From assembly GCA_021732845.1 (NCBI GenBank), contig JAKFUF010000008.1, positions 62,001 through 126,000 on the forward strand: 64,000 bases of DNA. The letters are read 5' to 3'. Positions within the stretch are counted from its first letter, which is position 1. The number at the start of each line of letters is the position of its first letter. Below are positions 31,980 through 36,163 of the stretch, piece by piece. This DNA comes from Planctomycetaceae bacterium (GTDB taxonomy: Bacteria; Planctomycetota; Planctomycetia; Planctomycetales; Planctomycetaceae). Both the position numbers and the translations under genes were made by a program. The notes beneath the pieces are model-generated. The model saw nothing but the letters and a program-made list of their open reading frames with translations. It was not told the DNA's origin and did no database searches.

Positions 31980-33146
31980 ATGTCGAAGAAGAAAACCGAC
32001 GCCCCCGCCACCCCTGCTGCCTCCGGCGCACCCGCGGCTTCCAACGGCATCGCCAGCGGCGCGGCGGCCGCCATGTTGCGGGCACCCGCCGAACTGATGT
32101 TCGCCCACGAGTTGGAAGCGCTCATTCAGAACGACAAGTACGACAAGCCACCCGGCTGGAAAATGTCCCCCCGCGCGGTGCTGACTTACATCTGCGGCGG
32201 CAAGGCCGGCAGCCTGGATATCTCGCCCAAATACATCGGCTACCAGCGGCTGGTGGAAATTGCCATCTCCACGCTGGTCACCGACCGGGCCCTGCTGCTG
32301 ATCGGCGAACCGGGGACCGCCAAGTCGTGGCTCTCCGAACATCTCGCCGCCGCGATCAACGGCGATTCGACCAAGGTCGTGCAGGGCACCGCCGGAACGA
32401 CGGAAGAACAGATCCGCTACACGTGGAACTATGCCATGCTCATCGCGCATGGCCCGAGCCACGACGCGTTGATCAAAAGCCCGATCTTTCGGTCGATGGA
32501 ATCGGGATCGCTGGCCCGCTTCGAGGAAATCACCCGCACAGCCTCCGAAGTCCAGGACGCTCTGATCTCGATCATGTCCGAGAAGCGGATCTCGGTGCCG
32601 GAACTGGCCACCGAAGTTCCCGCCGCCAAGGGTTTTTCCATTATCGCCACGGCCAATACCCGCGACCGCGGCGTCAACGACATGTCCGCCGCGCTCAAGC
32701 GGCGGTTCAACATCGTGGTGCTGCCGACGCCCAACACCCTCGAGACGGAGATCGACATTGTCCGCAAGCGGGTGAAAGAGCTGGCCGCGAATCTCGAACT
32801 CAAGGCTCAGCTTCCCGCCGAAGACGCCATCGAAAAAGTGGTCACCATCTTCCGCGAACTGCGGACCGGCCAGACGCTCGACGGCAAGAACAAGCTCAAG
32901 ACACCTTCAGGCGTGCTCTCGACCGCCGAAGCGATCTCGGTCCTGGCCAACAGCATGGCGCTCGCCGGCAACTTTGGCACCGGTGAGGTCACCGCCCACG
33001 ACATCGCCGCCGGACTGCAGGGGTCAATCGTTAAAGACGAAGAGAAAGACAAGACCGTGTGGCACGAATACCTGTCCAACGTGCTGAAGAAGCGCGGTGC
33101 CGAATGGCGGCCACTGTTCACGGCGTGCGCGGAGCACAATGAGTAG
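31980..33146 (+). CDS. MoxR-type AAA+ ATPase of a MoxR-DUF5682 pair
   Basis: The protein has 388 residues from the ATG at 31980. After an Ala-rich N-terminus come Walker A (LLIGEPGTAKSWLSEHL), FEEITRTASEVQDALISIMS (Walker B region), ATANTRDRGVNDMSAALKRR (sensor and arginine finger region) and a helical lid. MoxR ATPases act as chaperone-like remodellers, normally with a VWA protein. The DUF5682 gene follows after 156 bases. From family knowledge, this pair is part of MoxR-VWA-type clusters, which have been discussed as biological-conflict or stress systems. No VWA or SWIM zinc-finger gene is beside it here. Confidence 0.85.
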   Translation: MSKKKTDAPATPAASGAPAASNGIASGAAAAMLRAPAELMFAHELEALIQNDKYDKPPGWKMSPRAVLTYICGGKAGSLDISPKYIGYQRLVEIAISTLVTDRALLLIGEPGTAKSWLSEHLAAAINGDSTKVVQGTAGTTEEQIRYTWNYAMLIAHGPSHDALIKSPIFRSMESGSLARFEEITRTASEVQDALISIMSEKRISVPELATEVPAAKGFSIIATANTRDRGVNDMSAALKRRFNIVVLPTPNTLETEIDIVRKRVKELAANLELKAQLPAEDAIEKVVTIFRELRTGQTLDGKNKLKTPSGVLSTAEAISVLANSMALAGNFGTGEVTAHDIAAGLQGSIVKDEEKDKTVWHEYLSNVLKKRGAEWRPLFTACAEHNE

Positions 33147-33160
33147 GGAGGGAATGACGC

Positions 33161-33282
33161 AATGACCCAATGACCAATGCGTTGGGGCGAATCGCTTCAG
33201 GATGGATGAACGCATGATTGTGTCGGTGCAGCAGAGCCGGATCAAAAGCATTGGTCATTGATTCATTGGTCATTGGGTCATT
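33161..33282. repeat. Perfect 19-base inverted arms (AATGACC words)
   Basis: The 19 bases at 33161-33179 and the reverse complement of 33264-33282 are identical. The arms consist of AATGACC/AATGACC-like words, with further words just outside the left arm (from 33153) and inside the right arm (from 33249). They enclose about 84 bases in the gap between the MoxR and DUF5682 genes. Confidence 0.85.
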
Positions 33283-33302: not shown

Positions 33303-36059
33303 ATGGGAACTCAACCCAACATCCACGTCTTCGGCGTCCGCCACCTCTCTCCCTCCGGAGCCTGGCATCTGCGGCGGTTTCTCGACCAGGTGCGGCCGAA
33401 GGTCGTCCTGATTGAGGGGTTGGCCGATGCCGAGGAGCTGATCGCGGACATCACGCGGAAGGCGACGAAGCCACCGATCGCCATTCTGGCCTACACCGAC
33501 AGCCTGCCAGTGCGGACGCTGGTCTATCCCCTGGCACGCTACAGCCCCGAGTATCAGGCGCTGGTCTGGGCCAAGGAGAATGACGCGAAGGTCGAGTTCA
33601 TCGATCTGCCGTCAGACATCTTTCTGGCACTGCAGGATGTTGAAGAGGAACTGCGGCAGAAGGCGCTCCAGGCCTTGAAGGAGAAGGCAGAAGCTGACGC
33701 GGGGTCGGAAGACGCAGAAGGAGACGGAGGCGACGATGCAGACGGTGATACTCCGACAGCCGAGCCTGGCGCACCGCACAGTGAGCGAGGAACCCCGACA
33801 GCGGATGAAGAAGGCGGCGCAAGCCGCCCATCCGCGCCAGGGGTTCCGCAGCGAGCAAAACCTACCAGTGAGCGAGGAACCCCGACAGCGGATGAAGAAG
33901 GCGGCGCAAGCCGCCCATCCGCGCCAGGGGTTCCGCAGCGAGCAAAACCTACCAGTGAGCGAGGAACCCCGACAGCGGATGAAGAAGGCGGCGCAAGCCG
34001 CCCATCCGCGCCAGGGGTTCCGCAGCGAGCAAAACTTACCAGTGAGCGAGGAACCCCGACAGCGGATGAAGAAGGCGGCGCAAGCCGCCCATCCGCGCCA
34101 GGGGTTCCGCAGCGAGCAAAACTTACCAGTGAGGAACCAGACCACACACCAGAGCCGACATTTTCCACCTACGAAGAGTTCGCCCGGCTGGCAGGCGAGA
34201 ACGACTACGAAACCTACTGGGAGCGGCATTTCGAGCACAATTTGAGCGAGGATGCATATCGCCGGGCGTCTTATGAATTCGGGCAGTCGCTGCGCGACTT
34301 GGAGCAGGATGCGCCACGCTGGCGGGCGGAGAACCTGGTCCGCGAGGCATACATGCGCCGCAGGATTCAGCAGACGATCAAGTCTGGCGTGAAGCCCGAG
34401 AAGATCGTGGCGGTGGTGGGGGCGTTCCATGCGCCGGTGCTGAGCCACGAGCATCCACCGATGACGGACGAGGAACTCAACTCGCTGCGGCGGCGCGGCA
34501 GCAAGCTGACGCTGATGCCGTACTCGTATTTCAAGCTGTCGTCGCAGTCGGGATACGGGGCGGGCAATCATGCGCCGGCCTATTTCGAACTGATGTGGGA
34601 GGCGATGGAACACGGCGACCTGCCCGGGCTGCCCTCCAAGTATCTCTCGCTGATCGCGCGCCATGTCCGCGACGATGGCACCCACCGTTCAACCGCCGAA
34701 GTCATCGAAGGGGTGCGGCTGGCGACCACATTGTCGGCCATGAAAGACGGTTCGGCCCCGACGCTGGCCGACCTGCGCGACGCCGCGATCACGCTGATCG
34801 GTCATGGCGAACTGTCCACCATCAAGGACGCCGTGGCTCGCGTCGATGTCGGCACCGCCATTGGCGAACTGCCCAAGGGGGTGAGCCGGACCTCGATCCA
34901 AAGCGACTTTGAACGTGAGCTGATCCGGCTGAAGCTGGAGAAATACAAGACCGCGGTGAAGCAGGATCTGACGCTGGATTTGCGGGAGAACCGCCGCGCC
35001 AAGACGGATGAGGGGGCGTTTCTCGACCTGAACCGCTCGTCCTTCCTGCACCGCCTGCGGCTCCTGGAAATTGGCTTTGCCGTGCCGGCCCGCAGCGGGC
35101 AGGAGTCGGTGACTTGGGCGGAAAAATGGGTCGTGCAATGGACGCCCGAGTCTGAGATCGCCCTGGTCGAGGCGGTGCTGCTGGGTGAAACCGTCGAATT
35201 GGCAACCGGCTACAAGTTCCGCAATAAATTGGAGCTGTGCACGTCGATCGCCGAGGCCGCCGGTCTGGTACGCGACGCCTGCCAGTGCGGACTGATGCAG
35301 TCGATGGATCTGGCCCGCCACCGCCTGCAGCATCTGGCGACTGAATCCTCCAGCTTCGAAGCCGTGGCTCACGCCGACCGCGAACTCGGCATGATCGCCC
35401 GTTATGGAGATGTCCGAAAGTTCGACCCCGCCCCGCTCATTCCGCTCATTCAAGAGCTGTTCGTGCAGGGCTCGCTGGCCCTGTACGCCGCCTCCAATTG
35501 CGACAACGACGCCGCCAAAAAGCTGGTGCGCGGGATGGATGACCTGAACAAGGTGAGCCTCGAATACACGGACGTCGTCGAAGAGCAGTTGTGGATTGAC
35601 AGCCTGCAGAAGCTGGCGGACAGCGATGACCGGAACCCGCTGGCCTCTGGCTACGCCTGCGCGATCCTGCTGGAGCGCGGGCTGATTGCCAATGAAGACC
35701 TCGCCCGCGAGGTCTCCCGCCGCATCTCTCCGGGCATTCCCGCCGACCTGGGCGCGGGTTGGTTCGAAGGGCTGGCCGGACGTAACCGTTACGCGCTGCT
35801 GGCGCGGCAGCCGCTGTGGGAGCAGTTGGGCGAATACGTTTCCGGCCTGGAGGAGGACCAGTTTCGCCGGGCGTTGGTGTTTCTGCGCCGGGCCTTTGGC
35901 GGCTTTAGCCCCCACGAGAAACGGCAGATTGCCGAGAACCTAGGCCAGTACTGGGGTGTCAATGAGGACGAGGCCAGCGAGGCCCTCTCGGGGCCGTTGA
36001 CCGAGCAGGAAGAGCAAACGCTGCAGGATTTGAACGAGTTCAATTTCGACGACATCTGA
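33303..36059 (+). CDS. DUF5682 (TIKI/TraB-like) protein with in-frame repeats
   Basis: The protein has 918 residues from the ATG at 33303 (MGTQPNIHVFGVRHLSPSG); the frame before it is non-coding. Two GxxH motifs are visible: GVRH at 11-14 and GAFH at 373-376. Together with VVLIEG near residue 40, they resemble the paired motifs of the TIKI/TraB/ChaN-like hydrolase superfamily; I infer that relation. Residues 160-275 are four copies of a 29-residue unit (SERGTPTADEEGGASRPSAP then GVPQRAKPT) inserted between two conserved blocks, probably disordered. The C-terminal ~500 residues are helical. The gene follows a MoxR ATPase and probably works with it. Start codon context is weak. Confidence 0.8.
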   Translation: MGTQPNIHVFGVRHLSPSGAWHLRRFLDQVRPKVVLIEGLADAEELIADITRKATKPPIAILAYTDSLPVRTLVYPLARYSPEYQALVWAKENDAKVEFIDLPSDIFLALQDVEEELRQKALQALKEKAEADAGSEDAEGDGGDDADGDTPTAEPGAPHSERGTPTADEEGGASRPSAPGVPQRAKPTSERGTPTADEEGGASRPSAPGVPQRAKPTSERGTPTADEEGGASRPSAPGVPQRAKLTSERGTPTADEEGGASRPSAPGVPQRAKLTSEEPDHTPEPTFSTYEEFARLAGENDYETYWERHFEHNLSEDAYRRASYEFGQSLRDLEQDAPRWRAENLVREAYMRRRIQQTIKSGVKPEKIVAVVGAFHAPVLSHEHPPMTDEELNSLRRRGSKLTLMPYSYFKLSSQSGYGAGNHAPAYFELMWEAMEHGDLPGLPSKYLSLIARHVRDDGTHRSTAEVIEGVRLATTLSAMKDGSAPTLADLRDAAITLIGHGELSTIKDAVARVDVGTAIGELPKGVSRTSIQSDFERELIRLKLEKYKTAVKQDLTLDLRENRRAKTDEGAFLDLNRSSFLHRLRLLEIGFAVPARSGQESVTWAEKWVVQWTPESEIALVEAVLLGETVELATGYKFRNKLELCTSIAEAAGLVRDACQCGLMQSMDLARHRLQHLATESSSFEAVAHADRELGMIARYGDVRKFDPAPLIPLIQELFVQGSLALYAASNCDNDAAKKLVRGMDDLNKVSLEYTDVVEEQLWIDSLQKLADSDDRNPLASGYACAILLERGLIANEDLAREVSRRISPGIPADLGAGWFEGLAGRNRYALLARQPLWEQLGEYVSGLEEDQFRRALVFLRRAFGGFSPHEKRQIAENLGQYWGVNEDEASEALSGPLTEQEEQTLQDLNEFNFDDI
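33780..34127 (+). repeat. Four 87-base tandem repeats, each a palindrome, inside a CDS
   Basis: Copies begin at 33780, 33867, 33954 and 34041, with a fifth partial start (AGTGAGGAACCAG) at 34128. Copies 1 and 2 encode KPT at the end, 3 and 4 KLT; otherwise they look identical. In each unit GGAACCCC pairs with GGGGTTCC, GCGGATG with CATCCGC and GGCGGC with GCCGCC around a GCAA loop. In copy 1 the hairpin spans 33789-33847. The unit is 29 codons, so the frame is kept. Confidence 0.95.
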
Positions 36060-36060
36060 C

Positions 36061-36110
36061 CAGGGTCGTCACCACGACAACTGACCAGGGTCGTCACCAC
36101 GACATCTGAC
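36061..36110. repeat. 25-base tandem duplication just after a stop codon
   Basis: The units 36061-36085 and 36086-36110 differ at one position. Each holds GTCG and CGAC arms around TCACCA and ends CTGAC, the same bases that end the DUF5682 gene and contain its stop codon, so the array probably arose by duplicating the end of the gene. Confidence 0.8.
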
Positions 36111-36163
36111 CGAATTGTACTGGGCCACATCTTTCTTTCGACCCTTATTTTGAGAGTTCTTGC

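Follow-up and report, generated by a model that had tools for sequence, protein, structure and literature searches.

A dispersed 87-bp palindrome forms a tandem, in-frame array within a planctomycete DUF5682 gene

Palindromic DNA elements that have come to lie within coding sequences are described from several bacteria. In Rickettsia, palindromic elements are dispersed and partly stand in frame within unrelated genes, to which they contribute a conserved peptide (PMC10969869). Intragenic REPs of the GTAG/CGTC kind are reported from Opitutus terrae, Thauera and other species, also as dimers and clusters, with 20 to 82 encoded residues, clusters among them encoding 43 to 82 (PMC3733652); the tags of these REPs, GTAG or GTGG and CGTC, lie at the stem foot (PMC3733652, PMC6006769). 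The class 3 TnpA-Y1 transposases, found principally in Planctomycetes, Acidobacteria and Proteobacteria, carry the signatures NHVH and YV[VI][AENY]EQ and are flanked by atypical structures that can be high copy (PMC6006769). An initial annotation of the locus described below had named the Rickettsia elements as the precedent for in-frame palindromic insertion; this precedent holds, and is joined by the intragenic REPs of Opitutus terrae, Thauera and others, so that the phenomenon is not limited to Rickettsia (PMC3733652).

The locus lies in a 64,000-nucleotide stretch of a Planctomycetaceae genome (the window), whose features of interest are the following.

31980-33146, + strand: gene of a MoxR-type AAA ATPase, upstream of the DUF5682 gene, given for context only
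33303-36059, + strand: host gene (open frame, Pfam), encoding a DUF5682 family protein of 918 residues including the insert
33666-33778, + strand: acidic low-complexity stretch of the host protein, directly before the insert
33779-33865, + strand: repeat unit 1 (sequence, TRF), 87 bp, SERGTPTADEEGGASRPSAPGVPQRAKPT
33789-33847, + strand: 59-nt hairpin of unit 1, with stems of 8, 7 and 6 bp and a GCAA loop, recurring at +87, +174 and +261
33866-33952, + strand: repeat unit 2 (TRF), identical to unit 1
33953-34039, + strand: repeat unit 3 (TRF), one base different from unit 1, changing P to L
34040-34126, + strand: repeat unit 4 (TRF), identical to unit 3
34127-34131, + strand: CAGTG after the last unit, the putative target motif, identical to the five bases with which each unit begins

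The host protein belongs to Pfam family PF18934 (E 6.7e-142, 474.8 bits against a cut-off of 26), and the DUF5682 domain runs on across the insert. Much of the initial annotation was borne out here. The four 87-bp units lie head to tail and in frame, as seen in the sequence and by TRF (33779-34133, period 87, 4.1 copies, 99% matches), and amount to 348 nt or 116 residues. The hairpin of three paired segments was likewise recovered in folding: a single unit on the + strand folds at -48.9 kcal/mol with stems of 8, 7 and 6 bp and the GCAA loop, as compared with a mean of -25.9 (sd 2.95) for shuffled units (z -7.8), none of 200 shuffles folding as low. Units 1-2 and 3-4 are indeed one codon apart, their sole difference being C or T at unit position 84 (codon P or L). 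This pairwise pattern had been read as a hint of two duplication steps; the pattern stands, and the steps are only possible, as C at position 84 is also present in 23 of the 132 aligned copies of the family.

The insert is missing from all four DUF5682 orthologues examined (66-74% identical over the best tblastn segment), and the counter-finding named in the initial annotation, the same 29-residue units in distant homologues, was not seen. These four nearest orthologues come from three Planctomycetota MAGs and one MAG labelled Verrucomicrobiia. Most of the acidic stretch preceding the insert is also without counterpart in the four proteins, and the insert would sit in a linker that varies among orthologues. 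A structure model of the host protein, which is poor overall (mean pLDDT 53.7, with 10-residue means of 28-41 across the insert), is only suggestive of disorder in the inserted segment. Other repeats were seen around the gene. A fully complementary inverted pair of 19 bases (AATGACCCAATGACCAATG) lies at 33160-33282 of the window, between the MoxR-type and DUF5682 genes, and a sequence similar to it occurs near a Y1 gene at another locus (L103). At 36049-36111 a 25-bp direct repeat of 2.5 copies overlaps the end of the DUF5682 gene.

The 87-mer is dispersed through the genome from which the window was taken (assembly of 9.25 Mb in 262 contigs, 95.7% complete), its hairpin is conserved, and its tandem arrays, whose period is close to 87 bp, stand inside as well as outside genes. 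A 39-base hairpin pattern allowing up to three mismatches gave 106 matches in this assembly versus none for the reversed control pattern. By blastn, the 58 stretches first fetched around these matches contain 132 copies in 66 arrays; a covariance model fitted at least 150 candidates (all of the 150 scored), and with 23 more stretches fetched around the places found by the model the count rose to at least 188 copies in 93 arrays. The further copies of the hairpin that were to be expected of a REP-like element are therefore present in number. Fifty of the 93 arrays are single, 20 are double and 23 hold three to eight units. The initial annotation had tied multiplication to the DUF5682 gene; this part has to be given up, since arrays of two to eight units with periods near 87 also stand outside genes, and tandem growth is thus a property of the element rather than of DUF5682. 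The family consensus measures 87 bp; across 132 copies, 2660 of 2772 stem pair cells are able to pair. Stem pair 37-48 is C-G in 47 copies and T-A in another 47, and is paired in 104 of 130 copies versus 79.8 in shuffles; the remaining stem pairs vary hardly at all and are hence little informative. At one locus (L075, 8389-8850), a composite 159-bp repeat made of the 87-mer and 72 further bp occurs three times within a single open frame, which looks like the renewed duplication of an inserted unit along with part of its host.

Genes were called with a dicodon score trained on long ORFs with the repeats masked, and an array was counted as internal where the same frame was coding on both flanks. 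On this masked pass, 21 of the 93 arrays are internal, 52 have no host frame and 20 lie at one end of a coding frame; the status of these terminal arrays is unsure, as they are perhaps outside the true gene, and they enter neither group in the spacing comparison below. Among the internal calls, that of L058 (antisense) looks spurious and those of L049 and L101 are weak. Internal arrays are depleted: they make up 21 of 93, whereas about 0.76 of the fetched stretches is coding. In-gene arrays preserve the reading frame of the host and are mostly read in a single, hydrophilic frame: 15 of the 21 internal arrays are read on the same strand in phase 2, which is the frame of the DUF5682 gene (SERGTPTADEEGG...), two on the same strand in phase 1 and four antisense (chi-square p 1e-5). 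None of the 21 uses the fourth open frame, whose peptide would contain Cys and Trp, and two of the six unit frames hold stops and are hence uncountable. The spacing between units is divisible by three in 17 of 17 cases within the internal arrays (16 of 87 and one of 84) versus 30 of 60 in the 52 arrays without host frame (p 1e-4), one of these 60 being an artefactual spacing of 0 that was scored as divisible. Another 0 occurs in L119, a terminal array, and the terminal arrays L096, L097 and L109 have several spacings that are not multiples of three. A first round of gene calling, with the repeats left unmasked, had placed 22 of 66 arrays in genes, with corresponding spacings of 17/17 versus 29/49 (p 0.0014).

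Besides DUF5682, the Pfam domains Fe-ADH (L060), PSCyt2 (L066) and AAA_33 (L079) continue through the insert. In a Mfd-domain protein (L065; UvrB_inter, CarD_TRCF_RID and TRCF), a unit read in an antisense frame lies between two domains, and two units stand near the C terminus of what we take to be a TsaB-like protein (L110). All these cases represent insertions into coding sequence rather than accidents of annotation. The host proteins are mutually unrelated. PSCyt2/PSD1 genes are present in this genome and, with the origin of three of the four nearest DUF5682 orthologues, point to a planctomycete.

We compared the copies with their consensus at the codon level, using the gene calls of the first pass and three L075 copies added by hand. 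The main-frame copies show 34 synonymous and 118 non-synonymous codon differences, and the copies outside called genes 157 synonymous and 338 non-synonymous differences together with 12 stops. As a test of selection on the peptide, the main-frame copies thus reveal neither a synonymous excess nor amino-acid conservation: the insert stays open and in frame, and its sequence is not conserved. In-gene copies carry fewer differences per unit than copies elsewhere (5.4 versus 7.6), a lower divergence that fits a younger age.

The boundaries of the element were read in 57 of the first 66 arrays, nine with incomplete ends having been dropped. The left end is mostly C(A/C)G(T/C)G-AGCGAGG, with C at position 1 in 55 arrays, A or C at position 2 in 52 and G at position 5 in all 57, and on the right AAAACTTAC precedes a CAGTG that is less strictly kept, with G at position 5 in 44 of 57. 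A partial correlation links the target bases of the two sides (position 4; p 0.008); insertion next to a fixed end does not account for it, so that target duplication may have occurred. Two pairs of loci offer an empty site for comparison, and in both of them a single unit was gained through one insertion next to a CAGYG-like site. In one pair, the copy on contig C12 (L055) lies within a larger repeat whose counterpart on C1 (L044) carries a single CAGTG there instead, the difference being 88 nt. Among the seven matches to this context, the bases in question are CTTTG in four, CATTG in one and CAGTG in one, while the seventh matches only if two mismatches are allowed; the C1 site may thus be either a target or a scar. 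In the other pair, the copy on C4 interrupts a Y1-transposase-like gene (a fragment, L047 3362-3582), whose relative on C233 (L102) is uninterrupted there; C4 has gained 88 nt beside CGCTG, the reverse complement of CAGCG. The larger dispersed repeat of the former pair (L044 3660-5740, L055 3420-4080) contains CAGCCCAGGGCAAAGCCGGC and GTGCCACTGG segments, and the 87-mer has entered it at two different points.

A profile search returned five Y1_Tnp matches in the genome. In the stretches read from this 95.7% complete assembly, none of the five genes is flanked by the 87-mer, which interrupts one of them (C4), and a cognate transposase of the 87-mer was not found among them. Three (C57, C215 and C228) adjoin other palindromic repeats. 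The C215 gene, which encodes a Y1 protein of 168 residues scoring about 23 bits (22.6-23, at a cut-off of 23), has tandem palindromic arrays with an 84-bp unit on both of its sides (L131, 1617-2123 and 2671-2952). Matching pieces of this 84-bp family number 102 in the genome, many of them being more diverged or fragmentary. The 84-mer and the 87-mer have GTGAGCGAGGA and CGGCGCAAGCCG in common, a shared word of at least 11 bases being found in 4 of 300 shuffles. The C215 protein carries the motifs NHCH and YTVEAQ; beside its gene, CGGA precedes the GGGC/GCCC stem of the 84-mer (read by eye), and CnGA is absent from the outer stem foot of the 87-mer. Relatives of the C215 protein occur in 66 of the 150 genomes of the family sample, its own genome included. 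As the word GTGAGCGAG is present in only one of 29 loci of other genomes with such relatives, what connects the C215 enzyme with the 87-mer is a pair of shared words within a single genome. By the same procedure, none of 34 arrays of the 84-bp family is internal to a gene versus 21 of 93 for the 87-mer (p 9e-4); the family has open frames, yet stays out of genes, which may reflect a greater age or else a different target preference. At C57, seven 135-bp tandem units with the palindrome GAGTCACGGAGTGACTC (L041, 499-1448) lie next to the Y1 transposase gene, with a similar remnant on the other side of this gene.

Outside its own genome the 87-mer was not seen. With at most six candidates scored per genome it was found in one of 150 genomes of the family sample, with at most five in one of 170 of the order and with at most two in one of 392 of the phylum sample, each time the window's own; at these candidate numbers (6, 5 and 2) a few diverged copies might escape, and the genus is represented in the genome sample by this genome alone. 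The region 33700-34200 of the window has no Rfam match at E up to 0.1, a two-unit query has none in the PLSDB plasmids, and one 20-base pattern has no exact match in the IMG/VR viral contigs. In the literature searched, which covers few subscription journals, we found no report of the 87-mer, of in-frame palindromes in DUF5682 genes or of such a family in Planctomycetes. In-frame palindromic insertion is already known; it is this family and its architecture that were not found in that literature.

We consider it probable, at roughly 0.78, that the DUF5682 array consists of four copies of a REP/RPE-like mobile palindrome that is purged where harmful and whose peptide is tolerated. The 87-mer would insert at many places, and harmful insertions would be lost. 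The survivors within genes would be those in loops, linkers or termini, read in the frame that yields a hydrophilic and probably disordered peptide, which would be tolerated rather than selected. Arrays could lengthen through further insertions at the CAGYG present in each unit, or else through units recombining with one another; the mobilising enzyme might, with less assurance, be a Y1 (HUH) transposase of the C215 kind. With its hairpin, its lack of terminal inverted repeats and its site-restoring end, the element is one from which a Y1/HUH system could build arrays: a unit would insert beside the short site, its end would restore that site, and the next unit would enter there, which is the route we tentatively prefer. 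That the element grows its own arrays in this manner, each unit recreating CAGYG and a Y1-type transposase adding the next 87 bases (29 codons) onto it, is put forward tentatively and is in our estimation rather doubtful. If true, a single insertion into a gene could ratchet into a long, always in-frame disordered linker, a targeted and frame-preserving form of linker growth distinct from slippage.

Other origins can be weighed against the same observations. Were the array a coding minisatellite, formed when slippage duplicated a local stretch of the DUF5682 gene and unrelated to mobile DNA, its near-perfect tandem arrangement and preserved frame would follow readily; such an origin is however very hard to reconcile with 93 arrays that are scattered over many contigs, lie in unrelated genes as well as in sequence outside them and in 50 cases are single copies, or with the lack of any precursor of the unit in the four orthologues, and we regard it as highly improbable. 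A purely local minisatellite origin is rejected by the dispersed single copies; slippage may have been the cause of growth from one unit to four. The ends of the element bear on a different proposal, namely a MITE moved by a DDE transposase and flanked by a 5-bp target duplication, with CAGYG on both sides. CAGTG does stand on either side in 17 of the 57 arrays with readable ends, both empty-site pairs are compatible with a duplicated CAGTG or CGCTG, and the correlation between left and right at position 4 points the same way. Yet the element has no terminal inverted repeats, its ends (CAGYGAGCG and AAAACTTAC) being different and its palindrome central, and the five bases on the left vary less than those on the right (G at position 5 in 57/57 versus 44/57), unlike what a duplication would leave; we think this mode of transposition unlikely.

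The 29-residue peptide might alternatively be a portable protein module, useful as a flexible spacer or binding segment and kept by selection at the protein level. The predominance of one frame is in keeping with this, as are the three four-unit arrays in host genes, of which two belong to proteins that have cytochrome and TPR domains, and the 159-bp unit (copy plus 72 bp) that occurs thrice in one open frame. The absence of a synonymous excess, the unrelated hosts and the location of most arrays outside genes, the in-gene ones being depleted relative to the coding fraction, argue against it and make a selected module improbable. The preferred reading, a mobile palindrome whose peptide is tolerated, provides, beyond Rickettsia, a further natural and well-populated example of palindromic mobile DNA that has turned into protein, with hosts that include DUF5682, an Fe-containing alcohol dehydrogenase and a Mfd-domain protein. 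This one genome allows a test of whether such inserts are tolerated junk or useful linkers: copies lie both within and outside genes, those within favour one frame and keep the frame in their spacing, and empty sites as well as a gene-avoiding sister family are present.

The 87-mer is a genuine in-frame mobile palindrome of the RPE-like sort, of which the DUF5682 gene holds a long tandem example, and its relation to the described systems can be set out as follows. The suggestion in the initial annotation that a REP-type element had entered the gene is upheld in so far as the element is palindromic, dispersed and RPE-like, and does not extend to REPs of the GTAG/CGTC type, whose tags are missing at the stem foot. 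Membership in that group was rejected, the stem feet reading GCGA on the top strand and CTGC on the bottom strand in a consensus of 43 copies. Like REPs, the 87-mer is high copy (at least 188), has a conserved hairpin and stands in ORFs with some of its copies; it differs in its length (87 bp versus 20-40 bp) and in the direct orientation of neighbouring units. The motifs NHCH and YTVEAQ of the C215 protein are near the class 3 TnpA-Y1 signatures, an assignment made by motif only, whereas the 87-mer flanks no Y1 gene in the stretches read and its outer foot is without CnGA. With coding minisatellites it shares a tandem, in-frame array whose unit is a multiple of three; unlike them, it is dispersed through the genome and often single. 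The resemblance to the Rickettsia palindromic elements lies in its presence in frame within many unrelated genes and in its recurrent peptide (21 of 93 arrays internal, 15 of these 21 in one frame). It differs from them in its host, a planctomycete rather than Rickettsia, and, going by their description, in its 87-bp length, its three-part hairpin and its head-to-tail arrays, which reach four units, or 116 residues, within a gene.
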